Assembly (NCBI GenBank): GCA_905182565.1
Contig: CAJJCB010000027.1
Coordinates: 62,001 to 126,000 of the forward strand
Length of the DNA: 64,000 nt
Reading direction: 5' to 3'
DNA from: Acidimicrobiaceae bacterium
GTDB taxonomy: Bacteria; Actinomycetota; Acidimicrobiia; Acidimicrobiales; Poriferisodalaceae
Position 1 is the stretch's first letter. Each line of letters starts with the position of its first letter. Both the position numbers and the translations under genes were made by a program. Of the stretch, positions 15,522-42,967 are shown piece after piece. The notes beneath the pieces are model-generated. The model saw nothing but the letters and a program-made list of their open reading frames with translations, did no database searches and was not told the origin of the DNA.

Positions 15522-16109
15522 GTGACATATTCATCTAATGTGCTGATTCTTCGTCATGGTGAATCTGAATGGAATGCACTTGGCAAATGGCAAGGCCAAG
15601 CAAACCCGCCGCTTACGACAAAAGGCCAAAAGCAAGCCGAAATAGCAGCAAATAATCTAAACGACACGTTTAATTTAATCGCAGCTAGCGACTTACAACG
15701 AGCTACAGAAACTGCACGAATAATCGCAACTCATCAGCCAAACACAGATGTTTCGCTACACAGCGAACTCAGAGAACGAGATGCAGGACCATGGCAAGGT
15801 CTTACCCGAGATGAAATAGAACTCAAACACCCAGGTGCTATATCAAAACGCCTCTGGCCTGATGGTTACGAACATGACGAAACTGTGCTCCAAAGAGTCG
15901 TACCAATTTTGCATCATCTTGCTTCACTCAACAAAAAGGTATTAGTGATTGCACACGGCGGACTAATCCGAGCCCTAGATAGGTCTATTGGAGCCCCCGA
16001 TCTACCCATTCCAAACCTTGGCGGCCGTTGGTACCAAATTGGAGCTTCCATAACTTATGGAGCACAAATTAATCTAGTGAGCGTTGATGCCGAGATCGAC
16101 ATCGAGTAA
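15522..16109 (+). CDS. Histidine phosphatase (phosphoglycerate mutase-like)
   Basis: A 195-residue member of the branch-1 histidine phosphatase family. It has the phospho-accepting RHG motif (LRHGESEWN), the ASDLQRATETA region, an acidic ELRERDAGPWQG and the second catalytic His in VIAHGG. Such proteins include GpmB-type mutases, cobalamin phosphatases (CobC) and general phosphatases, so the substrate is open. The start is GTG 15522, with another GTG at 15540. It is divergent from the MoaD-like gene. In mycobacteria a mutase-family gene also lies close to mshA. Confidence 0.86.
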   Translation: MTYSSNVLILRHGESEWNALGKWQGQANPPLTTKGQKQAEIAANNLNDTFNLIAASDLQRATETARIIATHQPNTDVSLHSELRERDAGPWQGLTRDEIELKHPGAISKRLWPDGYEHDETVLQRVVPILHHLASLNKKVLVIAHGGLIRALDRSIGAPDLPIPNLGGRWYQIGASITYGAQINLVSVDAEIDIE

Positions 16110-16113
16110 CGGC

Positions 16114-16278
16114 CTATTCAATGACGAAATCGCTCTTCAGATTAATTGCCCAAGATACAACTTCACCAGGATCACTTTGATCCTCTGCTAATTGGTGCAA
16201 CGAAGATTCAACCCGGGCGAGTAATAGCTCAATTTCATCTAAATCAGATTCAGTAAGATGGCTCTGATCATTCGACAT
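16114..16278 (-). CDS. Small conserved-looking acidic protein (54 residues)
   Basis: A minus-strand frame from ATG 16278 to TAG 16114. It encodes a 54-residue acidic, helical product starting MSNDQSHLTESDLDEIELLL, with a likely amphipathic helix (E-I-E-L-L-L-A-R-V-E-S-S-L). It ends 4 bp from the stop of the convergent phosphatase gene. No family is recognised, but composition, neat packing and absence of an alternative gene support it. A weak TAGGT stands directly before the ATG, as also seen before the MoaD-like gene, so it may be leaderless. Confidence 0.55.
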   Translation of the reverse strand: MSNDQSHLTESDLDEIELLLARVESSLHQLAEDQSDPGEVVSWAINLKSDFVIE

Positions 16279-16430
16279 ACCTAAAGTTTAGAGCGTTTTT
16301 TCTCTACCTGCAGTCATATGAGGATATCGACTGTCATTTACCAAAAGCTTTGCGACTAGCCTTCTCTCCACTTTGATCTACTCAAAATTAAAAGGCAGCC
16401 CACGCCCATCTATTTAGATCCAATGAAAAT

Positions 16431-17798
16431 ATGACCATGAACGCACAAACGCCAAAACCAACTATCTCACTCATGGTTTTCACACGAGACCTAAGAATAA
16501 TAGATAATCCAGCCTTATCTGCTTCACTAGAAAGCGCTAATACATATTGTCTTTTTGTATTTGAAGACAGTCTTATATCAGGTTCACGGCCTCCCTTAAA
16601 CAGGCTGAAATTTCTCAAGGATTCGCTACAAGATCTCTCTCTCAGCCTTAGATCTATTGGGGGAGAGTTAATTATTGCTAGTGGTAAGTGGGCGGATACG
16701 GTGCTTGATGTTGCTAAAAAAATCGAGGCTTCAGAAATTAATATTGCAGATGACTACAGCACCTATGCCACTAATCGGATTGCTACTCTTCAGAATTATT
16801 GCGCTACAAATGAAATTACCTTAAACAAACATCCTGGAACATCTATCGTCGATCCAGGAGTGCTAACCCCAGCGACAGGTTCTGAATATAAAATTTTCAC
16901 ACCATATTTTCGTAAATGGATAAATGCATCATGGCGGCCCCAAGCGGTATTCCCTAAAACAATTAAATTTGGGAAAACCGACCACCAATTTCCTCTTTCT
17001 CAAAAGACTAAAGATCTCCTTTCAATCAGTTCTTCGGGTTACGGCGGAGAAACGAGCGGTAGCGAAAAGATGGATCAATGGTTGAGTAAGTCTTCAAATA
17101 CCTATAACAGCACTAAGGATGTTCCTTGCCTCGATAGCACTTCTCACCTCTCCGCATTTTTGCATTTTGGTTGTATCTCACCGCTGAGATTGGCGATCAA
17201 AGCACAATCTTTCCAAGAAACTGAAAATTTTGTACGTCAACTATGTTGGAGAGATTTTTTTCTTCAAATTCTCGCTGTCAGACCTGATGCATCAAATAAT
17301 GATTACAGAAATCGTGGTGATATTTGGACAAAAGACCCCAAGTCATTTATGGCTTGGAAAGAGGGAAAGACTGGATTTCCGTTAGTCGATGCTGGGATGC
17401 GTCAACTCATAGCTGAAGGATTTATGCACAACCGCACTCGAATGGTGACTGCTTCTTTTTTAGTGAAAGATCTCTACTTAGATTGGCGAGTAGGAGCAAA
17501 CCATTTCATGGAACATCTCGTAGATGGCGACATAGCTAACAATCAACTGGGCTGGCAATGGGTCGCAGGCACTGGAACAGATTCCAATCCACATAGAATT
17601 CTCAACCCAATTCGCCAAAGCGAACGCTTTGATCCTTCGGGCTCATACATTCAAAAATGGGTTCCTGAACTTTCAGGGCTAACACCCAAAACTATTCATG
17701 ACCCTCCCTTGGCCATAAGACGACAATGCGGATACCCAGAACAAATCGTCAATCATCACGATGCAGTAAAATTATTCCGAGATAGAAGAGTAAAATAG
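16431..17798 (+). CDS. phr: Deoxyribodipyrimidine photolyase (cryptochrome/photolyase family)
   Basis: A 455-residue class I photolyase. It has the N-terminal antenna domain starting MVFTRDLRIIDNPAL and the C-terminal FAD domain with FVRQLCWRDFF, TGFPLVDAGMRQL, MHNRTRMVTASFL and GWQWVAGTGTDSNPHRI. These are the FAD- and lesion-binding motifs of CPD photolyases, including the conserved Trp residues. It repairs UV-induced pyrimidine dimers using blue light. It is followed by a PlsC-like gene and lies opposite a cluster with a B12-binding CarH-like regulator, matching LitR/CarH light regulons of other bacteria. Confidence 0.93.
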   Translation: MTMNAQTPKPTISLMVFTRDLRIIDNPALSASLESANTYCLFVFEDSLISGSRPPLNRLKFLKDSLQDLSLSLRSIGGELIIASGKWADTVLDVAKKIEASEINIADDYSTYATNRIATLQNYCATNEITLNKHPGTSIVDPGVLTPATGSEYKIFTPYFRKWINASWRPQAVFPKTIKFGKTDHQFPLSQKTKDLLSISSSGYGGETSGSEKMDQWLSKSSNTYNSTKDVPCLDSTSHLSAFLHFGCISPLRLAIKAQSFQETENFVRQLCWRDFFLQILAVRPDASNNDYRNRGDIWTKDPKSFMAWKEGKTGFPLVDAGMRQLIAEGFMHNRTRMVTASFLVKDLYLDWRVGANHFMEHLVDGDIANNQLGWQWVAGTGTDSNPHRILNPIRQSERFDPSGSYIQKWVPELSGLTPKTIHDPPLAIRRQCGYPEQIVNHHDAVKLFRDRRVK

Positions 17799-17854: not shown

Positions 17855-18886
17855 ATGTCATCTCCAGTGCACAATTCGACCAGACAAGCGCGACTTCGAC
17901 GTCGAATAGTTACTATCCCCGGGATGTTTTTAGTAACGGCACTTCTTTTACTTTTACTGATACCAGTTTTATTAATTGGCGGAATTATTGATATCCGCTA
18001 TCGCAGACCACTTTCTACAGTTCGCCTAATTCTTTTTACTCTTTGGTGGCTAGTTGTTGAGACTTTTGGGCTCATAGGTGCCTTCGTTCTTTGGGCTTAT
18101 TTTCGTCCTTTCAAAAGACTCACCAATCAGCGTTCCATCCGGGCACATACCGGTATCCAGCGAACTTGGATTCAAGCGTTAGTGACGGCCGCACGCTTAT
18201 TTCTTGGCCTAAAGGTCAAAGTAGAAGGAGACTCCTTAGAAAATAAAATAGGCCCTTTCATAATTTTGGCGCGCCATGGAAGCCAAGGAGATGCATTGCT
18301 TATTGCCGCCATGCTCGGACGTTTAAGGATTCGCCCTAGGGTAATTATGAAAAAAGAGCTTCTCCAAGACCCATGTTTTGACATATTCGGCAATCGCCTG
18401 CGTAACTACTTTGTTGATCGTGACACAGTCGATAATTTCGAAGAAGTTGCATCTATAGGACAGTTAGCGGCCGAAATGAAGCCCGATGAAGCGACTCTTA
18501 TATTCCCTGAAGGCACGCGCTTCTCAATACCAAAATTAAAAAAATCTATAATTTCATTAGAAGAAACAGCTCCGTCACGAGTTAAGTCTGCAAAAAATTT
18601 ACGCTCGGTTCTTCCAATCAGAAGCCCTGGAATCCTTGCCGTACTAGAAAACGCCCCCGAAGCAGACCTCGTTTTCGTAAATCACGTTGGCGTAAACCAA
18701 TTCCGTTCGATAAAAGATATATGGCGTAACACACCGTTACCAACTGATCTTCACTTCAAAATCACATTTCTTCCTAGAAGCGAAGCACCAAATAGCGCTT
18801 CCCAGGACGAACTGATTAGCTTCATCGATTCAAGATGGGAAGAGATTGACGATTGGGTAGTTACAAATCAGCAGTCCTTGAGTTAA
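17855..18886 (+). CDS. PlsC-like 1-acylglycerol-3-phosphate acyltransferase
   Basis: A 343-residue protein with two or three N-terminal membrane helices (residues ~20-90) followed by an acyltransferase domain. The H-x4-D catalytic motif is seen in LARHGSQGD, FVDRDTV is the glycerol-phosphate-binding block, and IFPEGTRF is the third motif. It probably acylates lysophosphatidate or a related lipid at the inner membrane. It follows phr by 56 bp on the same strand. Its 3' end overlaps that of the convergent DUF1295 gene by 26 bp. Confidence 0.85.
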   Translation: MSSPVHNSTRQARLRRRIVTIPGMFLVTALLLLLLIPVLLIGGIIDIRYRRPLSTVRLILFTLWWLVVETFGLIGAFVLWAYFRPFKRLTNQRSIRAHTGIQRTWIQALVTAARLFLGLKVKVEGDSLENKIGPFIILARHGSQGDALLIAAMLGRLRIRPRVIMKKELLQDPCFDIFGNRLRNYFVDRDTVDNFEEVASIGQLAAEMKPDEATLIFPEGTRFSIPKLKKSIISLEETAPSRVKSAKNLRSVLPIRSPGILAVLENAPEADLVFVNHVGVNQFRSIKDIWRNTPLPTDLHFKITFLPRSEAPNSASQDELISFIDSRWEEIDDWVVTNQQSLS

Positions 18887-19751
18887 GTTTTTTTCTGAAA
18901 GGGAAAAGCACAGGAGTGGAAGCTTTATATCGTTCGTATTCTAAATCGTTTTTCCATCTCCGATCAGCTTTTTTTTCTAACATTGGTATTCCACTTATCT
19001 TGGTCAAAAGTAACCACACGAATAGTGGGGAAACTAGAGTTGCAAAACTCCATCCAGAAAGAGCCGGAATGGCGATTATCGCCACACCCGTCCACAAGAG
19101 AATTTCACCTAAATAATTAGGGTGACGAGAGATCGCCCACAAACCAGACGATATAAAATGATCTTTGTTTTCTTCTTTGCTCCTAAATTTACGTTTAGCT
19201 TCATCAGAAATTACCTCTACTGAGAAGCCAAGAACCCAGACTGAAAGACCTAAAAACCCAATTAAACCAAAGTTTTTATCATCTTTGGAAGTAATCGCTG
19301 CCAAGGCCGCTGATGCTGTAACTAGAACCCATAAGCCCTGAACAGTCCACGTAAACAAGAACCAGGCAAACTTATGTTTCATAGCGTTGAATCGTGAATC
19401 TGAACCCTCACGCTTCACTCTCAAGACAAGAAACGAACCTAGGCGTAATGCCCAGGTAATAACAATGATTGCTAAGATAACTGAACGGGTGCCTAAGTTG
19501 TTTGATAATAGTAGGGCTATAGATATGACAGTTACATAAGTAATTGAGCCTAATAAGTCAAAAAAATGCTCAGTGTGTTTTAACCATGCAGCAATGAAAC
19601 CAACCCATTGAATTCCGTAGGCAACTATCCCACATAATAAGAAAACTGAGATAGCTCTCTCAGAGTCACTGCTTGCACTCGCTGCTGTGGAAAGTGCAAT
19701 CCCTAAAATAATAGATATTAAAATTCCACTTATAGCTTGGTTTGTTTTCAT
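18861..19751 (-). CDS. DUF1295 (steroid 5-alpha-reductase-like) membrane protein
   Basis: A 296-residue membrane protein with about seven helices and the DUF1295/ICMT-type signature SRHPNYLGEILLWTG near residue 210, which binds a nucleotide or lipid cofactor in relatives. Family members include steroid reductases, isoprenylcysteine methyltransferases and proteins of light-induced lipid clusters. The ATG at 19751 overlaps the SDR stop (ATGA), so it is the last gene of the B12-regulator operon. A role in reducing or methylating a membrane lipid or isoprenoid is inferred only. Confidence 0.85.
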   Translation of the reverse strand: MKTNQAISGILISIILGIALSTAASASSDSERAISVFLLCGIVAYGIQWVGFIAAWLKHTEHFFDLLGSITYVTVISIALLLSNNLGTRSVILAIIVITWALRLGSFLVLRVKREGSDSRFNAMKHKFAWFLFTWTVQGLWVLVTASAALAAITSKDDKNFGLIGFLGLSVWVLGFSVEVISDEAKRKFRSKEENKDHFISSGLWAISRHPNYLGEILLWTGVAIIAIPALSGWSFATLVSPLFVWLLLTKISGIPMLEKKADRRWKNDLEYERYKASTPVLFPFRKKLNSRTADL

Positions 19752-21277
19752 TCGATATTTCTTCGCTGTTCATCTGCTGAAAGATCTTCGGCTAATGCCA
19801 CTATACGATCTAGCATCTTTTTGAAAATTAAAGTATGTGGTGGAACCAACGCATACCAGTAGAGACGTCCTAATAAACCACGAGGTACAAACAAGGCTCG
19901 TTGAATAATTTCAGTACCGTTTTCAGTTTCTACTACCTGCCACTCCAGCCATGCATGGCCGGGGTTTCTCATTTCGCCAATTAGCCGCAACGAATTAGAG
20001 TTAATGGTCACCACCTTAAAAAAGTCAACGGTGTCGCCTACTCGTAAATCCGTAGGGTGTCGACGTCCACGTCTTATCCCAACTCCACCAAGAATCTTGT
20101 CGATAAAACCACGCAAATTCCAAAGCCAGTTAAAGGCGAACCAACCATTGTCTCCTCCAACAGTTCGAAGTACAGCCATTAAATTTTCGCCTCTAGCATT
20201 TGTGATCTGGGATCTCTGATCGCTAAGAACACGTCCGCCAGACCATGAAGGGTCACCCAAAGCCGGCATTGCGGGGCCGGTTAGACTAGAGATCTGTTTA
20301 GCGCCAGATGCGTTTGTCCATCGAGTAGGCATCTCAAGATCTCGGACTCTCGCTAATGCCCGATTTATTGATTGATTTAGATCAAATGAGGTAAATCGCC
20401 CTTTATTTCGAATATCTCTATTCCCAACGACAACATCACTAGTTAACGAATCTATAAGTGACCGCGCTAAACGAATTGGGAGAGGACTCACAAGGTTTAC
20501 CCAGTGAGAAGATAAGCGCGGGGTCAAAACTGGAACAGCGATAATCAAGCGGCGGCGTAAACCAGCAACTTCGGCGTACACGTCCATCATCTGTCGATAT
20601 GTGAGAACTTCAGGGCCGCCAATCTCAAATACCTCACCAATTACTTCTTCATCTCCGAGCACCCCTACAAGATGGCTAAGTACGTCTTCAATCGCTATTG
20701 GCTGGCAGCGTGTCCGAGATACCCATCTCGGGACAACCATTACTGGGAGCACCTCGACCAAAGAGCGGAGCATTTCAAATGATGCACTTCCCGAGCCAAT
20801 AATGACTGCGGCACGTAATTCCGTAACTGGTGTAATCCCAGAAGCAAGTATTTCACCCACAGCATGACGGCTTGCTAAATGAGCTGAGTGAGTTTCATTA
20901 TCATGGCCTAGGCCACCCAAGTAGATAATTTGCTTGAGCCCAGCATTGTCAGCGCATTTAACAAATATTTCTGCCATCTCACTTTCGAGAGTTTCAAAGG
21001 AGCCGGAAGATGACATCGAATGAACTAGGTAATACGCAGCCTGCGCACCTTCAAGGACTTGGTTCACTTCAGAGGCGACAGAAAGATCTGCCTCTACTAC
21101 TTCGACTCTATCGCGCCACGGACGATCATCTAAAGCCGCCGAGCTCCGCGTTGTGCATCTAACCCTGTATCCAGCTTCTAGTAGTTCCGGGACTAATCGA
21201 CCACCAACGTAACCAGTAACGCCCGTAACAACCACTGTGCCCATATCTGACGGTTTAGTAACATTGCTATCACTCAT
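19748..21277 (-). CDS. NAD(P)-binding SDR with C-terminal DUF2867 domain
   Basis: A 509-residue two-domain protein. The N-terminal Rossmann part (residues ~12-300) has VVVTGVTGYVGGRLVPEL and a late Y-Y-L-V-H-S-M region of atypical/extended SDRs. The C-terminal part (from about residue 335) matches DUF2867, a START-like fold (GHAWLEWQVVETENGTEI). Such fusions often sit in light- or stress-induced lipid clusters. Substrate unknown. It overlaps the TIGR01777 gene by 8 bp upstream and the DUF1295 gene downstream, so it is tightly co-translated. Confidence 0.87.
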   Translation of the reverse strand: MSDSNVTKPSDMGTVVVTGVTGYVGGRLVPELLEAGYRVRCTTRSSAALDDRPWRDRVEVVEADLSVASEVNQVLEGAQAAYYLVHSMSSSGSFETLESEMAEIFVKCADNAGLKQIIYLGGLGHDNETHSAHLASRHAVGEILASGITPVTELRAAVIIGSGSASFEMLRSLVEVLPVMVVPRWVSRTRCQPIAIEDVLSHLVGVLGDEEVIGEVFEIGGPEVLTYRQMMDVYAEVAGLRRRLIIAVPVLTPRLSSHWVNLVSPLPIRLARSLIDSLTSDVVVGNRDIRNKGRFTSFDLNQSINRALARVRDLEMPTRWTNASGAKQISSLTGPAMPALGDPSWSGGRVLSDQRSQITNARGENLMAVLRTVGGDNGWFAFNWLWNLRGFIDKILGGVGIRRGRRHPTDLRVGDTVDFFKVVTINSNSLRLIGEMRNPGHAWLEWQVVETENGTEIIQRALFVPRGLLGRLYWYALVPPHTLIFKKMLDRIVALAEDLSADEQRRNIE

Positions 21278-22166
21278 ATGAGTCTGCTAGTTCTACAGCA
21301 GCAGAATCAAGATTTGAATGCTTAAATATGAAGCCGGATTCGGTTAGTGCATCAGGCTTAACTCGCGCACTGGCTAGAAGCAGACCATCAGCCATTTCTC
21401 CTAACAATAACCTCAGCGCTAATGAAGGGGCTACAAGAAAGTATGGGCGTCTCATTTGTTTTCCAAAAATTTTAACAAATGATTTATTCGTTACAGGCTC
21501 CGGGGCAACAAGATTTACCGCACCCTCAACTTGTGAATCAAGCAAATGTAACAGAGCACGAATTTCATCTTCCAAGGTTATCCATGACCACCATTGCTTG
21601 CCTGAACCCAATGGTCCTCCGACAAAAAATTTAAGCGTTTGTAATATTTTCGGCAGAGCCCCACCCATCGGCGTGCATACTATTCCTGTTCTTGCTATCA
21701 CTAACCGGGTCTTAGGACTTGCAATCGCAGACGCTTCAAGTTCCCATTTTTTGCATACCTCTGACAAAAATCCTGAGCCACTAGCAGATTTTTCTGAAAG
21801 AATCTCATCCCCTCGATTCCCATAGAAACCGATCGCAGAAGACGACACAACTACTTTCGGAGGGTTATCTAATTCTGAGATCTTGGCTGCTAGTAATGAA
21901 GTTCCCAAAATTCGGCTGTTAAGAATGCGTTCTTTTTTTCTTTTGCTCCACCGGCCTTCGATGCTTTCACCTGCAAGGTGTACTAAACCATCTAAACCCT
22001 CTAACTGAGATGCATCCAGGATGGCTCTAGATGGATCCCATTCAATATCAGTATCCTTGTTAGAACCGCGGCCTATACGAAGAACAGAATCTCCTCGTTC
22101 CTCAAGGGCTTTCGCCAATTCCGAACCAATTAATCCTGATGCTCCAGTAATCGCATATTTAGCCAT
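21270..22166 (-). CDS. TIGR01777 family epimerase-like oxidoreductase
   Basis: A 298-residue SDR-like protein. The NAD(P) motif YAITGASGLIGSELAKAL is followed by VHLAGESIEGRWSKRKKE and the VSSSAIGFYGN stretch that marks TIGR01777 (YfcH-like) proteins. A DUF1731-type C-terminus (GEMADGLLLASARVKPDAL) is present. Homologues are recurrent in LitR/CarH light clusters, but their reaction is unknown. The ATG at 22166 overlaps the regulator gene's stop by 8 bp, supporting one operon. Confidence 0.9.
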   Translation of the reverse strand: MAKYAITGASGLIGSELAKALEERGDSVLRIGRGSNKDTDIEWDPSRAILDASQLEGLDGLVHLAGESIEGRWSKRKKERILNSRILGTSLLAAKISELDNPPKVVVSSSAIGFYGNRGDEILSEKSASGSGFLSEVCKKWELEASAIASPKTRLVIARTGIVCTPMGGALPKILQTLKFFVGGPLGSGKQWWSWITLEDEIRALLHLLDSQVEGAVNLVAPEPVTNKSFVKIFGKQMRRPYFLVAPSLALRLLLGEMADGLLLASARVKPDALTESGFIFKHSNLDSAAVELADSYE

Positions 22167-22983
22167 CAGCTAACCTTTCTATAAGTTCTAGACCCAATCT
22201 AAAGTCTGACATTATGTGGTCTGCCCCAACGGACTCGGGCGTCAAACCGAACAGTCCTGTCCCACCGACTACCAATGGGACATTTATTTTTTCACGCCTC
22301 AGGGATTCAGTTACATCCCGCAGCCCCTCTAATGAGCCGGGGGTCGAGACCGATAATGCCACCGCAAGCAGACGGTCCGCATCTAAACAAACTTCAACAA
22401 ATGATTCAGGAGGGGTATTCGAACCAAGGTCCTGCACATCGAATTTGCGACCTTTAAGCAATAAGGCCAACACACTTGTAACTAGTCCGTGTTCTTCTGC
22501 CGGCGGACAACCCACGATTATCAACCCACGTTTACGACCACGGACTGCTGAGGTGGCCTGCAAGCGTCCAAGTAGTGACGGCACAATAGCGGAAGCACGA
22601 TGTTCAGCAGCTATAGAAAAAGTTCCCTCCGCCCATCCCCTACCAATTGAACCCATCGCCGGGAACAGTAGATCAATACAAAAATCTTCAACATCGCAAC
22701 CTGCAGCTCTGACGGACTCCGCTATTTTCCATACTCCTTCTTGGTCACCACTAATTAAACAATTCATCAATGGCTCGATGCGTCTCGACAAATCTCGGTT
22801 GCCTCGCCCGACTGCAGCGGGCGCTTTATTTTTAAGTTTCTCTAGCTCTTTTATTTCAATTACCCAGGTTCCATTTTTTTTACTCGCGAGCAACATTCCT
22901 GTTCGTACATAACGATAAATAGTCATGTAGTGAAGATCCAGGGTTTCAGCAGCCTCATGAAGCGTGCACGTCTGACTGTCCAC
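22159..22983 (-). CDS. CarH/LitR-like B12-binding transcriptional regulator
   Basis: A 274-residue regulator. Residues 1-50 form an excisionase/MerR-like winged helix (TLHEAAETLDLHYMTIYRYV). Residues ~65-140 form the four-helix B12-cap domain with the W-x9-EH motif (W117, E127, H128). Residues ~150-270 are the Rossmann B12-binding domain with a likely cobalt-ligand His165 in PPAEEHGL. In CarH these features bind adenosylcobalamin; light breaks the tetramer and frees DNA. Photolyase and lipid/redox genes around it fit a light-controlled regulon. GTG start at 22983, directly after the P450-UbiB stop. Confidence 0.88.
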   Translation of the reverse strand: MDSQTCTLHEAAETLDLHYMTIYRYVRTGMLLASKKNGTWVIEIKELEKLKNKAPAAVGRGNRDLSRRIEPLMNCLISGDQEGVWKIAESVRAAGCDVEDFCIDLLFPAMGSIGRGWAEGTFSIAAEHRASAIVPSLLGRLQATSAVRGRKRGLIIVGCPPAEEHGLVTSVLALLLKGRKFDVQDLGSNTPPESFVEVCLDADRLLAVALSVSTPGSLEGLRDVTESLRREKINVPLVVGGTGLFGLTPESVGADHIMSDFRLGLELIERLADG

Positions 22984-25941
22984 TTATTGGCCTGAATTAT
23001 TCTGTTCATCGTCAGATGCCGCTGAAACATTTTGAGGTGTCAAACGTTCCATCATCGAAACTCGACGATCTTGCATCTCGCGCCATGTCAGAGTCTTGAC
23101 TTCATCACGCATACCAACCGCCCGTCGTAAAGAGACATCTGAAATATCTTTTGTGTCAACGGAAAACCCTATTTCGGTTGCTACACGAACACCATTGCGA
23201 CCAAAAAAACCCATTGCAATTTGAGAAAATTCAGCTAAAAGGTCCATGTCTGGGTCAAGTTCTTGAACCACTGATGAAAGATACGCAAAATTCTTTACGA
23301 AAAGCATCAGTTCTTTAGGGATTCGAGCTCCATGAGACAATAAGCCTCGGACCAGATTCCTAAACTCTGCAACAAATTCTTCCTCAGTCAGTTCTAGCGG
23401 ATCAAAGTCATCACGATCTAATTGGAACTCGCTTATCAACAACCCTATGTCAGTATCAGAAGAGAAAGCTCCCAAATCACGAATCCCAGATACTTGAGCC
23501 TCTAGATCGCCAGTCATTAAACCAACAACATATCGCAGAAATGCGATTCGCCTTTCTCCGTCAAGACGACCGGTAATACCAAAATCAACCAGCCCAACTT
23601 CTCCTTTAGACCCCAGGAAAACGTTGCCAGCATGAAAATCACCATGGAATATTCCATGAATCACAGCACCCTCAAGCAAACCGTCAACCATTTGTCGAAA
23701 AATACGCCTCACATCCACTGGTTCTATTGATAATGAGCTGAGATCTCCAAGCGGAACTCCGCTGACGCGACTCATTACAATTACCCGATCAGACACTAAC
23801 TCTAGATATGGATCTGGTAATTCCCAGCTATTTCGCGCGTTCGATTTTAACGCTCGCCCAGTCTCAAAAAGATTTGCCACTTCAAGTCGAAAATCTAGCT
23901 CTTCGCATATGGTCTCGGCGAACAACTCGACTAATGCTGGAGGGTTAGCTAAGGCGGCGACTGGTAATTTACCAACTAATCGGGGGGCAATCCATGCCAT
24001 CACACGTAAGTCGCTTGTAACTCGACGACGAATCTTCGACCGTTGAATTTTGATAACGACAGGTGTTCCATCTAACAATTCTGCCAAATGTACTTGTGCT
24101 ATTGAAGCCGCTGCAATTGGGACACTTTTAACATCAAGAAAATTATTCTTTAACGGACCGAGATCTTTAACAAGTATTTTTTTTGCCTTTAACCAGGGCT
24201 CGGGACTGACTTGGTCCCGACATTTCCGACATTCTTCTACTAGCGCTTCCGGAAAAACTCCCTCTGCTGCCGAAATCAACTGTGCGAGTTTCACATAAGC
24301 AGGACCTTGCTTCTCACCAGCTCGGATAAGCCGTCTATAAAGAGATCTTCGGCTATCTAGATCATTTAGTTTTCGGTCACGAACCTTCCATAGAAGAACT
24401 GCTTTCCCAAAGCGAAAAGCGGTCGTTACTAATCTCCCTAAAGGAGGGAACTTCGGGCTCCTAATTAGTTGCGGTATCGACGAACGCACTGAATCTCGAA
24501 TAGCTGAAGCAGCACGTATCCATTCATCTTCGGGGTTAGTCGAAACATCTCCAAAAACTTCATCAGTAGAAATGTCAACAGCTTTAAAAGAAGAATTATT
24601 ACCAGGCTCATCACTTTTTTCTACATTTTTTTCAATAGCAATATTTAGTTCCGCAGGGCCCCAGATCCCCATTGACAATGGTTTCCAGATAACGGGAGAA
24701 GTTAAACGGAAAGTGGGAACGAGCTCAACGAAGGCAGTTAACGCTTCCTGTAACTCAGCTCGAGCCAAGGATGCCCCAAGACAATGATGCGCACCCGCAC
24801 CAAAAGCTAAATGCGGGCAACCCTTTGTTCTAGCAATATTGAACTCATAACCATCATCTTCTATCGATTCCGATAATCCGGCAGCATGAAGACCAAGTAA
24901 CACTGTTGTGCCCGCTGGGAAACGAATACCGTCAACTACTATGTCACGGGCAGCTAATCTAGCCGTAGTCCGAACTGCACTTATGTAACGCAGCGATTCT
25001 TCAACTGCTGCTGGAATAAGTGACGGATCCTCTCTTAGAGCCTCGTATTGATCAGGATGGTCAGCTAAAACCGCAATCATTGCGCCTAATTGGTTTCTAG
25101 TAGTATCTGTACCAGCAAGCAATATGGCTTGAACCATGGCAATGAGCTCATCGCTAGTTAGCCGATCTTCCTCCTCTTGCCCTCGGATGAGTTCACTCAG
25201 AAGATCGCCCGTAGGTTCCTTGGATCGCTTTTCAATTAGCTCAAAGACATAAGCATCAAGTTCAGATTGAGCTTTTACAACATCATCTAGCCGATCAATA
25301 ACTGCCTCGGTATCAGCATCTAACGCAGAAAAAATTATGTCGGCCCAGTTATCGAACAGTCTCCAATCAGCATCATCAACTCCAAGCAACCGGCAAATTA
25401 TTGGCACTGGATATGGTCGGCAGAACTCACTCACTAATTCACCACTACCGCGGTCACACATCACTGAAATTAATGACTGCGCATGCGATTTCATGAAAGG
25501 ACGTAGATCTCTGGCCCCACCCATGCTGAAAGAACCATTAACTAATTTTCGCAAACGGCGATGATCTTCACCCTCGACAGAAAGAACATTTGGTCTTATT
25601 TTAAACGAGCTTGGCGCCTCAGGAACAGACAGCTGCGATCGGGAGATGAACTCATTAAAGTCCGTTGACAAAGAGTCCATTTCCTCCAACATTGAGACAC
25701 CAGATAAAACTGATATCCAATCAGGGTCTCTAAGAATGGACTTGACCTGTTTGAATCCCAGAACTAACGGCCCCGCAGGGGTAGCTACTACCCAACCAGT
25801 CTCAGCCGCGAGCTTTTTACTTGCCGCAACAATTTCACCAAAATTTTGCGGCGAAATATTAACAAATGAAAGAGCCCCAGGATCGTTTACATCAACTATA
25901 TCTATCTGATCAAAACCCGAACCTAACTCATCCGCCATCAT
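22984..25941 (-). CDS. Cytochrome P450 - ABC1/UbiB kinase fusion protein
   Basis: One uninterrupted 985-residue frame. Residues ~1-440 are a complete P450: I-helix AGTDTT (276-281), E-x-x-R (E315/R318) and heme loop FGAGAHHCLG with Cys387. After a linker (~440-530), residues ~535-900 form an ABC1/UbiB kinase: K-L-A-Q in place of KLGQ (551-554), Ala-rich loop AAASIAQVH (~610), K631, HGDFHAGN (D768, N773) and DFG (786). UbiB ATPases help extract or process membrane lipids, so the P450 probably oxidises a lipid or isoprenoid. ATG 25941 has GAGGAG upstream. First gene of the regulator operon. Confidence 0.92.
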   Translation of the reverse strand: MMADELGSGFDQIDIVDVNDPGALSFVNISPQNFGEIVAASKKLAAETGWVVATPAGPLVLGFKQVKSILRDPDWISVLSGVSMLEEMDSLSTDFNEFISRSQLSVPEAPSSFKIRPNVLSVEGEDHRRLRKLVNGSFSMGGARDLRPFMKSHAQSLISVMCDRGSGELVSEFCRPYPVPIICRLLGVDDADWRLFDNWADIIFSALDADTEAVIDRLDDVVKAQSELDAYVFELIEKRSKEPTGDLLSELIRGQEEEDRLTSDELIAMVQAILLAGTDTTRNQLGAMIAVLADHPDQYEALREDPSLIPAAVEESLRYISAVRTTARLAARDIVVDGIRFPAGTTVLLGLHAAGLSESIEDDGYEFNIARTKGCPHLAFGAGAHHCLGASLARAELQEALTAFVELVPTFRLTSPVIWKPLSMGIWGPAELNIAIEKNVEKSDEPGNNSSFKAVDISTDEVFGDVSTNPEDEWIRAASAIRDSVRSSIPQLIRSPKFPPLGRLVTTAFRFGKAVLLWKVRDRKLNDLDSRRSLYRRLIRAGEKQGPAYVKLAQLISAAEGVFPEALVEECRKCRDQVSPEPWLKAKKILVKDLGPLKNNFLDVKSVPIAAASIAQVHLAELLDGTPVVIKIQRSKIRRRVTSDLRVMAWIAPRLVGKLPVAALANPPALVELFAETICEELDFRLEVANLFETGRALKSNARNSWELPDPYLELVSDRVIVMSRVSGVPLGDLSSLSIEPVDVRRIFRQMVDGLLEGAVIHGIFHGDFHAGNVFLGSKGEVGLVDFGITGRLDGERRIAFLRYVVGLMTGDLEAQVSGIRDLGAFSSDTDIGLLISEFQLDRDDFDPLELTEEEFVAEFRNLVRGLLSHGARIPKELMLFVKNFAYLSSVVQELDPDMDLLAEFSQIAMGFFGRNGVRVATEIGFSVDTKDISDVSLRRAVGMRDEVKTLTWREMQDRRVSMMERLTPQNVSAASDDEQNNSGQ

Positions 25942-26048: not shown

Positions 26049-26104
26049 ATAATCATTTAGTGCTAAATATACAGGTATTTCGCTACTCTGAGAGATTGAA
26101 GCGG

Positions 26105-27391
26105 CTAAACCTTACTTAATATTGTTTCGGCGGCGCGGCGGCCAGAGACCAACGCCCCTTGGATAGAAGGAGTATCTCGATGATCACCACACACAAAACA
26201 ATTATCTGAAATTTCAATTGGGCGTCGAAATGGTCTACCTGGTTCAAATAATGGCTGGCTATGAGCAATACCGAAAGTCTTTAAATGATTCCATTCATCT
26301 ACGCATTCCCCAAACCACCGATGCATTTGAGTAAGGACCTCATCGGTGGTCACATCATTGTCTCCTGGCATCGCAGCAACAATCAGCGCTTGTCCTCCCG
26401 TCGCGTAACTTGGCGCTACATTTGACAAAATAGCCATATTCCTTACTGGTCCCTGACCTTCCCCTGCAAGAAAAATAGCGCTGTCTTTCGAGGGCGCCAC
26501 TGGAGCCGAGAAATACATACATGTTTGAGAACGTGAATAAACAGTTTCGATTCCTAGAAGCTGCGATGCGCTCGGGCCATCGGTTGCCACAATCAACTGA
26601 GCTGGTTGAAACTTCAATCCGTTCTTTAAAAAAACGTCTCGTCCCGCTATCGACTCAACAGGTGAATTTAGCATAAGGCTATCTTCAGATATACGCCGAG
26701 ACATCTGCTTCGGTATTTCACCCATTCCTTGGCTTGGCACCGCAGCACTGCCACGAAACAAACAACCAAGAATGTAAAAACCAAGCCGCGCTGAGCCCTC
26801 GAGCCTTGGTGTTAACTGAATTCCAGAAAGAAGCGGAAAGAAAAAACTCCCAATTGCGTCACTCGAAAAACCGAGCTCCTGAAGCGCTGACTCCATGGAT
26901 ATATCAGACTTAGGTTCCCAAGACTTGCTTAACAAGATTCGCAGCTTCAACAGTCTTAGCTTGTCCTTAGTCTTCAAGGACCGAGAAAGCGCAGCTGTAA
27001 AAACAGCCAACGGTCTTTTCGCTGGATCTATTAAACGACTTAATTGATCTTTTTTCACCAAGACGGCACCAGGCTCGAAATAAGAAAGATCCAATGCATC
27101 TAAATCAACATGTCGCTCAAGTTCTGGGTAAGCAGTCAAAAGAACTTGAAATCCTCGGTCAAGAAGAAATTCCCCATGAACATCGGTACGAACCCGACCG
27201 CCCACTTCATCAGCTGCTTCGACAACAAGGACTTCTCTATTATTTGCTTTAAGAAGAGCAGCTGCCGCTAAACCAGCTAAGCCCGCCCCAATTATTAGCG
27301 TTTCAGGGCTAGAGCTATTTTTTGGCTCTCTTTGAATGCTCACAGTCAAAGGCTTACCTGCAAAAAACCTGGCTGTCGAAAACAAACTCAA
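26105..27391 (-). CDS. FAD-dependent amine oxidase / phytoene-desaturase-like oxidoreductase
   Basis: A 428-residue flavoprotein with the dinucleotide motif LIIGAGLAGLAAAALL, then VVEAADEVGGRVRTD and the LDRGFQVLL segment typical of prokaryotic desaturase/amine oxidase relatives. A C-terminal FAD contact follows (FVCGDHRDTPSIQGALVSG). It probably oxidises or desaturates a lipid or isoprenoid; true carotenoid desaturation is not shown. The 27391 start is TTG; a GTG at 27343 would remove 16 poorly conserved residues and may be correct. It precedes the P450-UbiB gene by 163 bp on the same strand. Confidence 0.84.
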   Translation of the reverse strand: MSLFSTARFFAGKPLTVSIQREPKNSSSPETLIIGAGLAGLAAAALLKANNREVLVVEAADEVGGRVRTDVHGEFLLDRGFQVLLTAYPELERHVDLDALDLSYFEPGAVLVKKDQLSRLIDPAKRPLAVFTAALSRSLKTKDKLRLLKLRILLSKSWEPKSDISMESALQELGFSSDAIGSFFFPLLSGIQLTPRLEGSARLGFYILGCLFRGSAAVPSQGMGEIPKQMSRRISEDSLMLNSPVESIAGRDVFLKNGLKFQPAQLIVATDGPSASQLLGIETVYSRSQTCMYFSAPVAPSKDSAIFLAGEGQGPVRNMAILSNVAPSYATGGQALIVAAMPGDNDVTTDEVLTQMHRWFGECVDEWNHLKTFGIAHSQPLFEPGRPFRRPIEISDNCFVCGDHRDTPSIQGALVSGRRAAETILSKV

Positions 27392-27528: not shown

Positions 27529-27601
27529 GGGCCGCTAGCTCATCTGGTAGAGCAGGGGACTTTTAATCCCAAGGTGCCGGGTTCAAGCCCCGGGCGGCCT
27601 A
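27529..27601 (+). tRNA. tRNA-Lys (TTT)
   Basis: A 73-nt cloverleaf. The acceptor GGGCCGC (27529-27535) pairs with GCGGCCT (27594-27600) with a G-T end pair. The D arm is GCTC...GAGC. The anticodon arm GGGA-CTTTTAA-TCCC carries anticodon TTT, and the T arm is CCGGG-TTCAAGC-CCCGG. The 3' CCA is not encoded. Confidence 0.96.
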
Positions 27602-27669
27602 CACCTATAAATCGCTAAAAGTAAGACAAAAGTTAATACTTAGATCCTGGTTGAGCCCAAGACTAATAA

Positions 27670-35974: not shown

Positions 35975-36643
35975 CTATGGGATTAGATATACAACGGCAA
36001 AAATTACGATCCATACAATATCCACAAAATGCCAGTAAAGACCAATTATCTCTACTGTCTCAGCCCGCTCAGCACCAATGTTGCCTCGGCTAATAAGTGA
36101 CCAAAGAGTTACTAGCATTATTATGCCGAGGGACACATGCACACCATGAAAGCCCGTCAGCGTGAAAAAGGCAGACGAGGAGATATTAGTCGTGAAGCCC
36201 AGTCCCTCACGATAAAAGCCCGTGAACTCGTACACCTGGCCCGCTATAAACACTGCCCCTAATGTGGCAGTGGTAAGCAGCCACATTTTGCAACGCTCTA
36301 TCTCGCCTCTGCCTATTGAGGTAACTGCCAACACCATCGTCAGTGAACTCATCAAAAGAACAAATGAGCTAACCGAAGTAAACGGAATGTCGAACAGTTC
36401 TGCAGCGGTGGAGCCGTCTGTATCTGGACCCACACGATTACGAAGTAAAAGATATGTTGATATCAGTGCTGCAAACAATAAACAATCAGAGCCTAGAAAA
36501 GCCCACATCGTCATTTTTTCATTACTGAGCCCCGTGGTAAGAGGGGGCACATCGTAGTCATCCCATTCAGTCGGACCATATGCCAACTGTGAGGTATTGA
36601 CCTCAGTTGCATTATCCAACGGGAGCCTCCTCCGTGCTTTCAT
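35975..36643 (-). CDS. ctaE: Cytochrome c oxidase subunit III
   Basis: A 222-residue, seven-helix-type subunit III with the usual FLGSDCLLFAALISTYLL, GQVYEFTGFYREG and GFHGVHVSLGIIM segments and C-terminal YWHFVDIVWIVIFAVVYL. It overlaps the ctaD 3' end by 32 bp. Together with CtaC, CtaD and the subunit-IV-like protein it forms the caa3-type oxidase. The ATG at 36643 gives the family N-terminus. Confidence 0.93.
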   Translation of the reverse strand: MKARRRLPLDNATEVNTSQLAYGPTEWDDYDVPPLTTGLSNEKMTMWAFLGSDCLLFAALISTYLLLRNRVGPDTDGSTAAELFDIPFTSVSSFVLLMSSLTMVLAVTSIGRGEIERCKMWLLTTATLGAVFIAGQVYEFTGFYREGLGFTTNISSSAFFTLTGFHGVHVSLGIIMLVTLWSLISRGNIGAERAETVEIIGLYWHFVDIVWIVIFAVVYLIP

Positions 36644-38636
36644 CTTTTGGTGAATCTATTAAATTTTCTGAATGGTCACCATCAGGCTCATCATGATCAT
36701 CATGATCATCACCATGCCCGTGACCTACATCTGGATCCGTATGTGGTTCCAAACTCCAGCCATATATGGCTGCGACCAATACCAATAGCCCGATACCAGT
36801 TAACCAAAGCGTGTAAATAAGCCCTAAAGCTATTAGGGGCAGCCCAGAGGCTAATACAATCGGCCAATAAGACGGAGATGGCAGGTGAGGATGTTGATCA
36901 CCTAGTTGCGCAATGGCATTACCATCTGCCACTTTACGGAGTTTACCATTCTCATCTTTCTGGTATTTTTTGTGCCAAAAATCATCTAGGTCAGTTACCA
37001 CTGGCACGTAGTCAAAGTTATGTTCTGGAGTTGGTGAAGGAATTGACCATTCTAGAGTTCTTCCGTCCCAAGGGTCAGCTGGAGATTGCTCTATTGTTCC
37101 AGCTTTGTAACCAAGCCATGTTTTTACGATGTTTATAGCGAAGATAATCATTCCGATTAAGATGACGAAGGCTCCAATTGAAACCATCAAGTTCCAGAAG
37201 TCAAAACCATCTTCTGGACCGTATCTACTGTGTCGTCTGGCCATTCCTTGTAACCCTAAAATATGCATTGGGCCAAAGGTCAAATTAAAGCCGACTAGGA
37301 CAATCCAGAAATGCCATTTGCCTAAAGTTTCATTCAGCTTGTAGCCAAATGCCTTCGGCCACCAATAATACATTCCAGCAAACAGCCCCATTAGAGCGCC
37401 ACCAAATAGTACGTAGTGAAAGTGAGCGACAATGAAATAGGTATCAGTTTGCTGCGTGTCGGCTGGCGCCACCGAATGCATTACTCCGGACAGGCCTCCA
37501 ATAGTGAACATAGATACTAGTGAGATTGAGAACATCATCGGAACGGTAAAAGTGATTTTGCCACCCCACATTGTGGCTATCCAGTTTAAAATCTTAACAC
37601 CTGTCGGAACTGCAATGAACATGGTCGTTGCAGAGAATGCGGCAACGCTCACCGGTCCAAGCCCTGATACGAACATGTGGTGAGCCCATACGCCCCAGCC
37701 CATAAATCCAATAGCAGCACCAGATATAACAATAACTGAGTAGCCAAATAGCGGTTTACGACTAAATACTGGGAGCGTCTCAGAAACAATACCAAAAGAT
37801 GGCAGTATCAGAATATACACTTCTGGATGTCCAAATATCCAAAATAGATGCTGCCAGAGAAGCGGATCGGCTCCCATACCGACATTAAAGAAGTTGGCGT
37901 CAAATGTTCTGTCCAAAGACAAAAGCACCAATGCAACAGTTATGACGGGTAATGCAAACAGTAGCAAAAACTGAACTACCAGAATCATCCAAGTAAAGAC
38001 CGGCATGCGAAGAAGAGTCATTCCAGGGGCCCGCATATTAATAATTGTCACAATCAGGTTTATCGCCCCGACTAATGACGCAATACCAGCTATTTGTAGT
38101 CCCATCGCATAGAAATCCATCCCTGCGCCAGGGCTAAACGTCACGCTGGTATTTGGAGCGTACGCAAACCAACCACCGTCAGGTCCGCCACCCAGAAACC
38201 AGCTTAGGTTGAGGAAAATGCCACCGAAAACAAAAATCCAAAGTCCTAGGGCATTCATTCGTGGGAACGCTACGTCACGAGCACCAATTTGGAGGGGCAC
38301 AATGTAGTTAGCAAATGCAGCTGCAAGTGGCATAATCACTAAAAACACCATTGTCGTGCCGTGCATCGTGAAGATTTGGTTGTATTGCTCAGCAGTTAGA
38401 ACTGTTCCATTTGGAGTTAGGAGCTGGGTCCGGATTAAGAGCGCTTCAATACCGCCCCACAAAAACCAAAACATTGCAACTGCGCCGTACATTATGCCGA
38501 TTTTTTTATGATCAACGGTAAATACCCAAGCCCTCCAACCTTTTGCATACGTTGGTCGAGCAAACGCGCCAGTAGAAGGCTTTGTCTCACCACTCTCAAG
38601 TTCGAGGATTAGAGGAGGTTCCTCTGTAATCGCCAT
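36612..38636 (-). CDS. ctaD: Cytochrome c oxidase subunit I (catalytic) with His-rich tail
   Basis: A 674-residue heme-copper oxidase subunit I. All ligands are present: H92 and H407 (low-spin heme), H405 (heme a3), H270 cross-linked to Y274, and H319/H320 (CuB). K348 fits the K-channel. After the twelve core helices come two extra C-terminal helices (HLPSPSYWPIVLASG...), a subunit-IV-like fusion seen in actinobacteria, and a strongly His/Asp-rich tail (~residues 635-655). It reduces O2 to water at the cell membrane. It lies 40 bp after ctaC on the same strand. Confidence 0.96.
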   Translation of the reverse strand: MAITEEPPLILELESGETKPSTGAFARPTYAKGWRAWVFTVDHKKIGIMYGAVAMFWFLWGGIEALLIRTQLLTPNGTVLTAEQYNQIFTMHGTTMVFLVIMPLAAAFANYIVPLQIGARDVAFPRMNALGLWIFVFGGIFLNLSWFLGGGPDGGWFAYAPNTSVTFSPGAGMDFYAMGLQIAGIASLVGAINLIVTIINMRAPGMTLLRMPVFTWMILVVQFLLLFALPVITVALVLLSLDRTFDANFFNVGMGADPLLWQHLFWIFGHPEVYILILPSFGIVSETLPVFSRKPLFGYSVIVISGAAIGFMGWGVWAHHMFVSGLGPVSVAAFSATTMFIAVPTGVKILNWIATMWGGKITFTVPMMFSISLVSMFTIGGLSGVMHSVAPADTQQTDTYFIVAHFHYVLFGGALMGLFAGMYYWWPKAFGYKLNETLGKWHFWIVLVGFNLTFGPMHILGLQGMARRHSRYGPEDGFDFWNLMVSIGAFVILIGMIIFAINIVKTWLGYKAGTIEQSPADPWDGRTLEWSIPSPTPEHNFDYVPVVTDLDDFWHKKYQKDENGKLRKVADGNAIAQLGDQHPHLPSPSYWPIVLASGLPLIALGLIYTLWLTGIGLLVLVAAIYGWSLEPHTDPDVGHGHGDDHDDHDEPDGDHSENLIDSPKDESTEEAPVG

Positions 38637-40686: not shown

Positions 40687-41280
40687 CTACTTGACCACGT
40701 ATACGGCGTACCAGGTAGCAGTCCAAGCGACCGCTACAAAGTCCCAAAAAAACACTGCCGAGCCAAGTGGCGTGCTTCCATGCTGACCAACACTTCCGCC
40801 TACTGATCTAAGTCCCATCAAACCTAGATATATCAGACCGACGACTACTAAGGCTAAAGATAACCCAGTGGTTGCGAATGCAAGGTTTGGGTACTCCCCC
40901 GAACCTATTTCTAATTCCATTCGATTAAGACTATAAATAACCATATTCACAAAACCGAGACCAAGCACAATTGTGGTTGCTATGGCTGTCCAAGCATGTG
41001 CTGTGTCTCGTCGTCTACTAGCCCATAGTGCCCAATGAGCGGTGACTATAGATGTATACAAAGTCAGGAGAGCATAATCGAACTGAGGGTTAGGAACTTT
41101 CAATCCATTTAACCATTCGCTTCCAGGGTGAATACCTGAAGCATGGCGCCTCGCCATATACATAGCTAACGCGCCAGCGATCATCATTGCCGCAGCAGCT
41201 ATGGCAAAACCCGTCGCTACAAATTGAGCTCTCGGACGCTGAGGTTCCCCCGAAACAAGAGTTGGTGTGTTATCAGCCAT
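40687..41280 (-). CDS. Degenerate cytochrome oxidase subunit III-like protein
   Basis: A 197-residue, five- to six-helix protein that aligns along its length with CtaE. ALLTLYTSIVTAHWALWAS, GLGFVNMVIYSLNRMELEIGSGEYPNLAF and a C-terminal FFWDFVAVAWTATWYAVYVV correspond to the CtaE blocks. The conserved His residues (F-H-G-V-H-V) and other subunit-III residues are lost. ATG 41280 overlaps the ligand-less subunit I by 8 bp. It likely forms an inactive partner complex with that protein. Longer in-frame starts lack support. Confidence 0.72.
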   Translation of the reverse strand: MADNTPTLVSGEPQRPRAQFVATGFAIAAAAMMIAGALAMYMARRHASGIHPGSEWLNGLKVPNPQFDYALLTLYTSIVTAHWALWASRRRDTAHAWTAIATTIVLGLGFVNMVIYSLNRMELEIGSGEYPNLAFATTGLSLALVVVGLIYLGLMGLRSVGGSVGQHGSTPLGSAVFFWDFVAVAWTATWYAVYVVK

Positions 41281-42967
41281 TAGACGCCGCCTCCTCAGCC
41301 TCGGCAATATCCAATAATGGTGTACCTGAGCTAAGGTCCTGCAATTCTGCAAGCTGGCCCATAGCAGGAGGGGAAGAAAGTAACCATTCCGGTGACTGTC
41401 CGGACCACGGATCGTCAGTGGCTTCCATACCTTTTTTCAGAGTTATTGAAACAAACATATTGAGCAGCAGGAGTGCTACCCCAGAAAGAACTATCAAAGT
41501 TCCTACAAGTCCAAGCGCACTGAGTCCTTCAGCACCTGAGTCATCAACCAAATTTGAATATATTGAAGTCATTGAGGGATCTTGGTACACGAAATCAGGT
41601 TGGTCCGTAAGTAGCCCAGACAAGAATGGTCCCACAGATGCTAAAAAGGCTCCACCTGCAATCACTAAAAAGTTTAGTTTGCCAAGAAGCTCATTTAACT
41701 GGCGACCCCATATCTTCGGCGCCCACCAATGAACTGCTGCAAGGACGCCAAGGAGACCGGCTCCATAAATCATTACAGATTGTTGACCAGTCACCCAGGT
41801 GGTCATTCTAAGTTGAGCATTGCCTAAGTTTCCGCGATCCCCAATTTCTAACCAGTCAACTGCAGCTCCTATAAAGCCACATAAAGCTCCGGTTAATAGG
41901 AATTTTCCTGCACCAAGCGATGCTAATAACGAGGTCGTTATCTCGGGGACCTTGCGATTTTGCATTAATGTTTGAACCAGTGCTAACCCAATAAGGGCAA
42001 GAAGCCCCGTAATCGCAAGTAGTGCTCCGCCATACATTGCAACAAGAACAATGCCTTCGGCGCCATCAATTATGTCAGAGCCTTCATTGGTTATGGCAAA
42101 ATTTGCCCACGCCCCAAATCCGAAAAGCCCTAGAAGACCAATAGTGAAATACATCGCTAACGGCTCAAATACTCTTCGTTTAGCTGAAGCAAGCACTACT
42201 TCACTGGCTATGCCGAGAACTGGTACCGAATACATAAACAATTGAGGGGCTCGATAAAGCCAGTCAATTCGTTCCCAAATACCAAAATTACCGCCGAGAA
42301 AAACTCTCCCATATCGGTGATCAACGTAAAGTATTACTAGTTGCCCCAACAGCACAGGCAGACTAACTACAAGCATCGACGCCGTAACCAGAGCCGACCA
42401 CGAATACGGCGGGGTCGTATCCATATACAAACCCGGAGAGCGCATTGTCATAGCTGTGGCGCCGATTACGACGGCACCAATTAAGAGGCCGACGACCAAA
42501 CCTCCAACGGCCAGCATGTGCAGGTCGACCAGATCAGAGTTACCGCCATAAGGTCCACCGTTACCGATATAAGCACCAAACAGAACCCCAGCAGATACAA
42601 GCCAAACCCAATATGAAGCTGCTGCGGCTCGAGGAAACGCTAGATTCCCAGCACCTATTTGCAATGGCACGATGTACATAGAGAAACCGAGAAAAATCGG
42701 AATTAAGAAAAGGAGAACTAACGTTTCACGTGACAGCGCAAATAGTTGACCAAATGAGTCTCCATCGAGAACAACAAAATCAGTTCCAGATGTGAGGTCA
42801 ATACGAACTATGACATCGAGAAGTACACCCACCAGCAACATAATGATTGCGCTGACGATATAAAGGCGCCCAACCCTCTTATGGTCCGCAGTTGTAAGCC
42901 AACCAAACGGAGTGGGATCTTCACTTGTTGTGATAGCTGTCGCCATATCTGTATTTGTTCCGGTCAT
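41273..42967 (-). CDS. Ligand-less heme-copper oxidase subunit I homologue (pseudoenzyme)
   Basis: A 564-residue, about twelve-helix protein clearly homologous to CtaD (MYIVPLQIGAGNLAFPR matches YIVPLQIGARDVAFPR; HWWAPKIWGRQLNELLGK matches YWWPKAFGYKLNETLGK). Every cofactor ligand is changed: heme His to Ser79, CuB His to Ala240, cross-linked Tyr to Phe244, CuB His pair to N289-F290 and the H-F-H heme pair to G394/Q396. It cannot bind hemes or CuB in the usual way. First of a seven-gene oxidase operon. Role unknown: assembly, supercomplex scaffold or ion channel are possible. Confidence 0.9.
   Translation of the reverse strand: MTGTNTDMATAITTSEDPTPFGWLTTADHKRVGRLYIVSAIIMLLVGVLLDVIVRIDLTSGTDFVVLDGDSFGQLFALSRETLVLLFLIPIFLGFSMYIVPLQIGAGNLAFPRAAAASYWVWLVSAGVLFGAYIGNGGPYGGNSDLVDLHMLAVGGLVVGLLIGAVVIGATAMTMRSPGLYMDTTPPYSWSALVTASMLVVSLPVLLGQLVILYVDHRYGRVFLGGNFGIWERIDWLYRAPQLFMYSVPVLGIASEVVLASAKRRVFEPLAMYFTIGLLGLFGFGAWANFAITNEGSDIIDGAEGIVLVAMYGGALLAITGLLALIGLALVQTLMQNRKVPEITTSLLASLGAGKFLLTGALCGFIGAAVDWLEIGDRGNLGNAQLRMTTWVTGQQSVMIYGAGLLGVLAAVHWWAPKIWGRQLNELLGKLNFLVIAGGAFLASVGPFLSGLLTDQPDFVYQDPSMTSIYSNLVDDSGAEGLSALGLVGTLIVLSGVALLLLNMFVSITLKKGMEATDDPWSGQSPEWLLSSPPAMGQLAELQDLSSGTPLLDIAEAEEAASNG

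Follow-up and report, generated by a model that had tools for sequence, protein, structure and literature searches.

The role of ATP in the UbiB/COQ8 proteins is debated, and the leading idea is that it serves to extract hydrophobic quinone precursors for enzymes associated with the membrane. For COQ8, a coupling of the ATPase to the extraction of hydrophobic CoQ precursors for such enzymes has been put forward, and larger protein substrates were reported to be occluded by the atypical fold (PMC8346625). Among fused cytochromes P450, those of the P450 BM3 and CYP116B types have a redox partner domain. As regards the response to light, the Wx9EH motif was described for the B12-binding regulators CarH/LitR (PMC9304148), and a light signature composed of GxxW, EH, GxxH and GxxxP elements was published (PMC11796333). 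LitR-regulated clusters of Pseudomonas contain photolyase, SDR and FAD oxidoreductase genes, and the pmlR1 region of Pseudomonas mendocina (phrB, SDR, FAD oxidoreductase, ufaM) was used here as the light-response cluster for comparison (PMC9758184).

We describe a gene in which a P450 is joined to an ABC1 kinase half of the UbiB family. It is located in the window, i.e. the whole stretch of 64,000 nucleotides of Acidimicrobiaceae DNA that was analysed. In our literature search of open-access papers, no published report of a P450-UbiB architecture was found. The fusion combines two well-known families in a new way and is not a new kind of machine. Unlike the P450 BM3 and CYP116B fusions, it is without a redox partner domain, and when the adjoining genes were looked through by eye, neither a ferredoxin nor a reductase was recognised.

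A P450 and a UbiB-family kinase in one reading frame

The first-pass annotation had proposed a P450 and a UbiB kinase in the same frame, and this was confirmed: both domains were recognised by Pfam, all motifs were present, and a single continuous frame of 985 aa, with no internal stop between P450 and ABC1, runs on the minus strand from the ATG at 25941, with the ribosome-binding site GAGGAG, to the TAA at 22984-22986 (Table 1). The number that had been given to the heme cysteine, 387, was also correct; the strand had not been stated. In the alignment of relatives, the catalytic residues of both halves were invariant or nearly so; at the DFG (786-788), the relatives have LVDFG or LVDYG.

Table 1. 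Features of the fusion gene and of its surroundings in the window (aa, residues of the fusion protein)
Feature	Position	Strand	Basis or remark
P450-ABC1 (UbiB) fusion gene, 985 aa	22984..25941	-	ORF and Pfam; start with GAGGAG
Pfam p450 domain, aa 118-406	24724..25590	-	Pfam E 1.5e-26
Pfam ABC1 domain, aa 574-814	23500..24222	-	Pfam E 8.8e-46; COQ8A fold match
Variable interdomain linker, aa about 441-475	24517..24621	-	alignment of relatives; dN/dS 0.20-0.28
AGTDTT (I-helix), aa 276-281	25099-25116	-	P450 half
ExxR, E315/R318	24988-24999	-	P450 half
Heme Cys387	24781-24783	-	P450 half
KLAQ, aa 551-554	24280-24291	-	in the UbiB N-terminal extension, before the ABC1 domain
AAAS 610-613, K631, ExD 681-683, HGDFHAGN 766-773, DFG 786-788		-	ABC1 half
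HTH_17 + B12-binding regulator, CarH/LitR-like	22159..22983	-	Wx9EH intact; GTG directly after the fusion TAA
SDR39U1/TIGR01777 oxidoreductase	21270..22166	-	overlaps the regulator gene
NAD-binding SDR with DUF2867	19748..21277	-	overlaps the SDR39U1 gene
DUF1295, steroid-reductase-like membrane protein	18861..19751	-	overlaps the SDR-DUF2867 gene
Lysophospholipid-type acyltransferase	17855..18886	+	convergent; conserved neighbour
Cryptochrome/photolyase-family protein	16431..17798	+	profile match; conserved neighbour
FAD amine-oxidase-like oxidoreductase, HpnE/CrtI-like below family cut-offs	26105..27391	-	conserved neighbour
Palindrome TTTAGTGCTAAA (pattern TTTAGYRCTAAA), candidate operator	26056..26067	.	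115 nt upstream of the fusion

By its Pfam p450 match, the acid-alcohol pair of the I-helix, the ExxR motif and the heme cysteine, the P450 half belongs to the cytochromes P450; it is a bacterial P450 of class-I type. Its best match in the PDB was 3wvs (E 4.7e-53), and this match, together with the AGTDTT of the I-helix, ExxR and the heme cysteine, makes up its likeness to the CYP107/PikC-like soluble bacterial P450s, from which the fusion differs by the C-terminal UbiB domain. In the fusions of genus g2 (L078-L082), we noticed two insertions: one lies in the P450, ahead of its heme-binding loop, the other in the kinase, between its HGDFHAGN and DFG motifs.

The kinase half scored 156 bits with the Pfam ABC1 model (gathering threshold 22.9) and carries the complete UbiB motif set, namely KxGQ (with G replaced by A), the A-rich loop, ExD, HxDxxxxN and DFG. 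With NCBIfam TIGR01982, the equivalog model for UbiB of ubiquinone synthesis, it reached 242.5 bits, far under the cut-off of 487.6, and we thus regard it as a UbiB-family protein and not as UbiB itself; nothing that we found points to ubiquinone chemistry. The UbiB N-terminal extension starts at residue 476, after the linker. A model of residues 470-985 (pLDDT 75) gave human COQ8A (5i35) as the best structural match (Z 25.7, rmsd 3.9, 361 residues), with the KxGQ-bearing N-terminal extension included in the match, and the mycobacterial MSMEG_1954 and Rv3197 followed with Z of 18-21. According to this model, the kinase half has a COQ8-like fold with the N-terminal extension over the kinase core. 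The full motif set, the extension and the match to COQ8A link the fusion with the UbiB/COQ8 (ADCK3) family, from which it differs by its P450 partner, by KLAQ in place of KLGQ, and by the lack of a predicted TM helix. As no TM helix was predicted in the fusion protein (maximum KD-19 1.39), its contact with the membrane must be peripheral. The AlphaFold model of the whole protein (pLDDT 54) was too poor to judge the facing of the two active sites. The Gly-to-Ala change in KxGQ, which the first-pass annotation had singled out as a further variant, lost its significance, since the stand-alone homologues have KLAQ, KLGQ or KLCQ in this position; KLAQ as a variant that defines the fusion was therefore ruled out.

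The tethering of the two halves in a conserved two-domain architecture and the conservation of the nucleotide-site residues would also fit a UbiB half that regulates the P450 in cis instead of delivering its substrate, with ATP/ADP binding or phosphoryl transfer altering the conformation or the redox coupling of the P450. We consider such regulation unlikely: the KxGQ/A-rich-loop apparatus that belongs to this family has been conserved, the Q554 of KLAQ is invariant, and the reported occlusion of larger protein substrates by the COQ8 fold (PMC8346625) makes protein kinase activity less likely.

Distribution and origin of the fusion

A search for other p450 plus ABC1 architectures and their neighbours had been suggested, together with the concern that homologues might always be separate genes and that a stop codon or frameshift in the linker had been missed. 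Besides the genome of the window, about 27 marine Acidimicrobiales genomes, one of them from a single cell, have the fusion as one intact frame. In the genome scan, both halves were found together at 22 further loci (61-95% identity); of the scanned loci, L024 and L028 are truncated by the ends of their contigs, and L026 has a frameshift close to the linker. Among 397 genomes of the order, we counted 29 with the fusion, and the genome of L026, a MAG, is the only one of the 29 in which it is frame-shifted. The single-cell genome AG-410-G14 is the source of L019, whose fusion thus cannot be explained by metagenome mis-joining. With these data, an artefact of assembly or frameshift was ruled out.

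The fusion is confined to five genera of the family of the window (f1), to genus g32 of family f27 and to genus g143 of family f55. In a phylum-wide sample of 396 genomes, none was found outside these groups, and the halves occurred there only as separate genes; in the plasmids searched with the fusion as query, no match covered 80% of the query. For five close pairs, dN/dS was 0.02-0.09 in the P450 half and 0.05-0.07 in the ABC1 half (with one ABC1 pair saturated), and for the linker the close pairs gave 0.20-0.28. Strong purifying selection thus acts on the two halves, which are joined by a linker that serves as a spacer.

ABC1 genes that stand alone but share the N-terminal extension of the fusion are common in Acidimicrobiales (44-47% identity to the fusion half), and so are stand-alone P450s (40-48% identity); both are separate genes and each lies outside the fused clade. 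The genome of the window retains one stand-alone P450 of related type, and its sole full-length ABC1 match is the fusion. In the trees of each half, the fused and the stand-alone sequences were split by one branch, with SH-aLRT of 100 and 99. In a first ABC1 tree, which included three far outgroup rows, the stand-alone sequences fell inside the fused rows (2 changes); we gave greater weight to the ABC1 tree without these three long-branch rows, in which fused and stand-alone sequences are one branch apart. Because a single branch separates them in both trees, one fusion event is enough, and the sequence trees trace both halves to a single fusion of formerly separate Acidimicrobiales genes. In the fusion-less light clusters that we read, no separate adjacent P450 or ABC1 of the fusion type, and hence no pre-fusion cluster, was present; the only P450 matches were distant ones (27-29%) in L183 and L185.

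Neighbouring genes and a candidate operator

The genes for the fusion, the B12-binding regulator, the SDR39U1 oxidoreductase, the SDR with DUF2867 and the DUF1295 protein abut or overlap in this order and, on this basis, apparently form one operon. The GTG of the regulator directly follows the TAA of the fusion and is in the same reading frame (22983-22986). Further away, a tRNA-Lys (TTT) gene was noticed at 27529-27602, a short distance upstream of the gene for the FAD oxidoreductase, as well as two cytochrome-oxidase subunit I-like genes (36612-38636 and 41273-42967), both of them minus-strand members of one respiratory cluster.

The several oxidoreductases already co-expressed by this operon, as well as the long and variable linker, could be taken to mean that the fusion is a device for co-expression or stoichiometry, in which both halves perform separate steps of one light-stress lipid pathway with no direct hand-over. 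However, the single ORF was kept across three family-level groups, with one frame-shifted MAG only, and the operon-bearing genomes would need no fusion for co-expression alone; we find this explanation improbable.

The gene set around the fusion recurs in other genera of f1 and in genus g143 of f55, and in the MedAcidi-G1 lineage it is kept in part, in a different order. In the g32 lineage (L009, L012, L027), the fusion has a different but likewise conserved context, with a truncated cNMP-binding-domain-like gene on one side and FKBP-like and SDR genes on the other, and in genus g2 it has yet other surroundings. Since the contexts in g32 and g2 differ, light control may be lineage-specific.

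Like the pmlR1 region, the window has photolyase, SDR and FAD-oxidoreductase genes beside a B12-type regulator. In contrast to that region, there is no DUF1365 (UfaO) in the genome of the window, and no real CFA-type methylase, as only weak partial CMAS matches were obtained for UfaM/CFA-type enzymes; present here in addition are the P450-UbiB fusion and the DUF1295, DUF2867 and fasciclin genes. The lack of DUF1365 and of a convincing CFA synthase leaves a furan fatty acid pathway, in which the P450 would take the place of UfaO, unsupported, and it argues against home-made furan fatty acids as substrates.

The Wx9EH motif was present in all 11 cluster regulators (11/11). The regulator of the window has three of the four elements of the light signature, with AEEH in place of GxxH. 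Its DNA-binding domain matches HTH_17 and not a MerR model, and with 45.9 bits the regulator did not reach the cut-off of NCBIfam TransRegCarH (400 bits).

We read eight light-cluster loci of the window's family, and each has the palindromic pattern TTTAGYRCTAAA upstream of the fusion, two of the loci deviating from it once; the chance expectation per locus is 0.003 or less, and several of the eight loci are close relatives, hence they are not eight independent cases. The whole genome has four such sites, located at the fusion operon, in a tandem pair before a fasciclin gene, and inside P450 coding sequence. The tandem pair (G000:C6:19783-19826; L192 7784-7827) is just upstream of the gene of a fasciclin-domain lipoprotein (L192 7245-7766, minus strand); in L020 and L025, homologues of this gene lie next to the fusion. 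In L083, a TTTAGCACTAAA site (16897) is present upstream of a sigma-70-type gene (15970-16866) beside photolyase; this gene resembles light-induced sigma factors. As read from the sequences, the distribution of the palindrome supports a small regulon, to which the fasciclin lipoprotein gene likely belongs together with the fusion operon. The B12 regulator probably acts through TTTAGYRCTAAA. Another promoter repeat, ACACAC...GTGTGT, was discarded as a conserved element, as it is not kept in L008. The CarH/LitR-like regulator, the photolyase and the candidate operator, which the first-pass annotation of the fusion had not taken into account, suggest that it is controlled by light, and control by the adjacent regulator appears fairly likely to us.

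Candidate substrates and the proposed function

The SQS_PSY domain of phytoene/squalene synthases is absent from the genome of the window, which is 95.6% complete. This makes a home-made carotenoid, a squalene-derived hopanoid or a sterol unlikely as the substrate, and these endogenous compounds are disfavoured. Menaquinone, polyprenyl or ordinary acyl lipids remain as candidate substrates, and we would put the chances that the fusion acts on a membrane lipid at about even. Without an endogenous carotenoid pathway, the P450 could alternatively oxidise an exogenous compound (an algal carotenoid, a sterol or a xenobiotic), with the ABC1 half binding a ligand in the way in which Mycobacterium Rv3197/MABP-1 binds a macrolide. 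Indeed, Rv3197, the structure of which was solved with erythromycin, is the best PDB sequence match of the kinase half, and several P450s matching the query act on macrolides; nevertheless, the conserved operon with photolyase and the B12 regulator points to endogenous photo-protection, and we regard an exogenous substrate as highly improbable.

Our working proposal, which we hold tentatively and at slightly less than an even chance, is that the fusion is a light-induced, membrane-peripheral monooxygenase in which the UbiB half uses ATP to present a hydrophobic lipid to the tethered P450. Control of the fusion, within a photo-protection operon, would lie with the adjacent CarH/LitR-like B12 regulator, acting via TTTAGYRCTAAA. 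The UbiB half would spend ATP on drawing a very hydrophobic lipid, e.g. menaquinone, a polyprenyl lipid or an acyl lipid, out of the membrane or on presenting it, and the tethered P450 would then oxidise the lipid presented to it. The putative ATPase activity of the UbiB half is, in our opinion, likely. The ATP-driven delivery of a lipid to the P450, which is modelled on the COQ8 proposal, is possible but less than probable. That all of this is combined, i.e. that a single-chain, ATP-driven lipid-delivery monooxygenase operates under B12-photoreceptor control and passes the lipid to the P450 in cis, we consider conceivable but rather doubtful.

If true, this would be, to our knowledge, the first known natural system in which lipid presentation by UbiB to an oxygenase is hard-wired in one polypeptide. 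In a natural UbiB-oxygenase fusion whose two active sites are conserved, the partner is fixed, and the leading idea on the role of ATP can be tested directly on a single purified protein. The fusion also points to a photo-protection pathway of marine actinobacteria that is apparently independent of home-made carotenoids.
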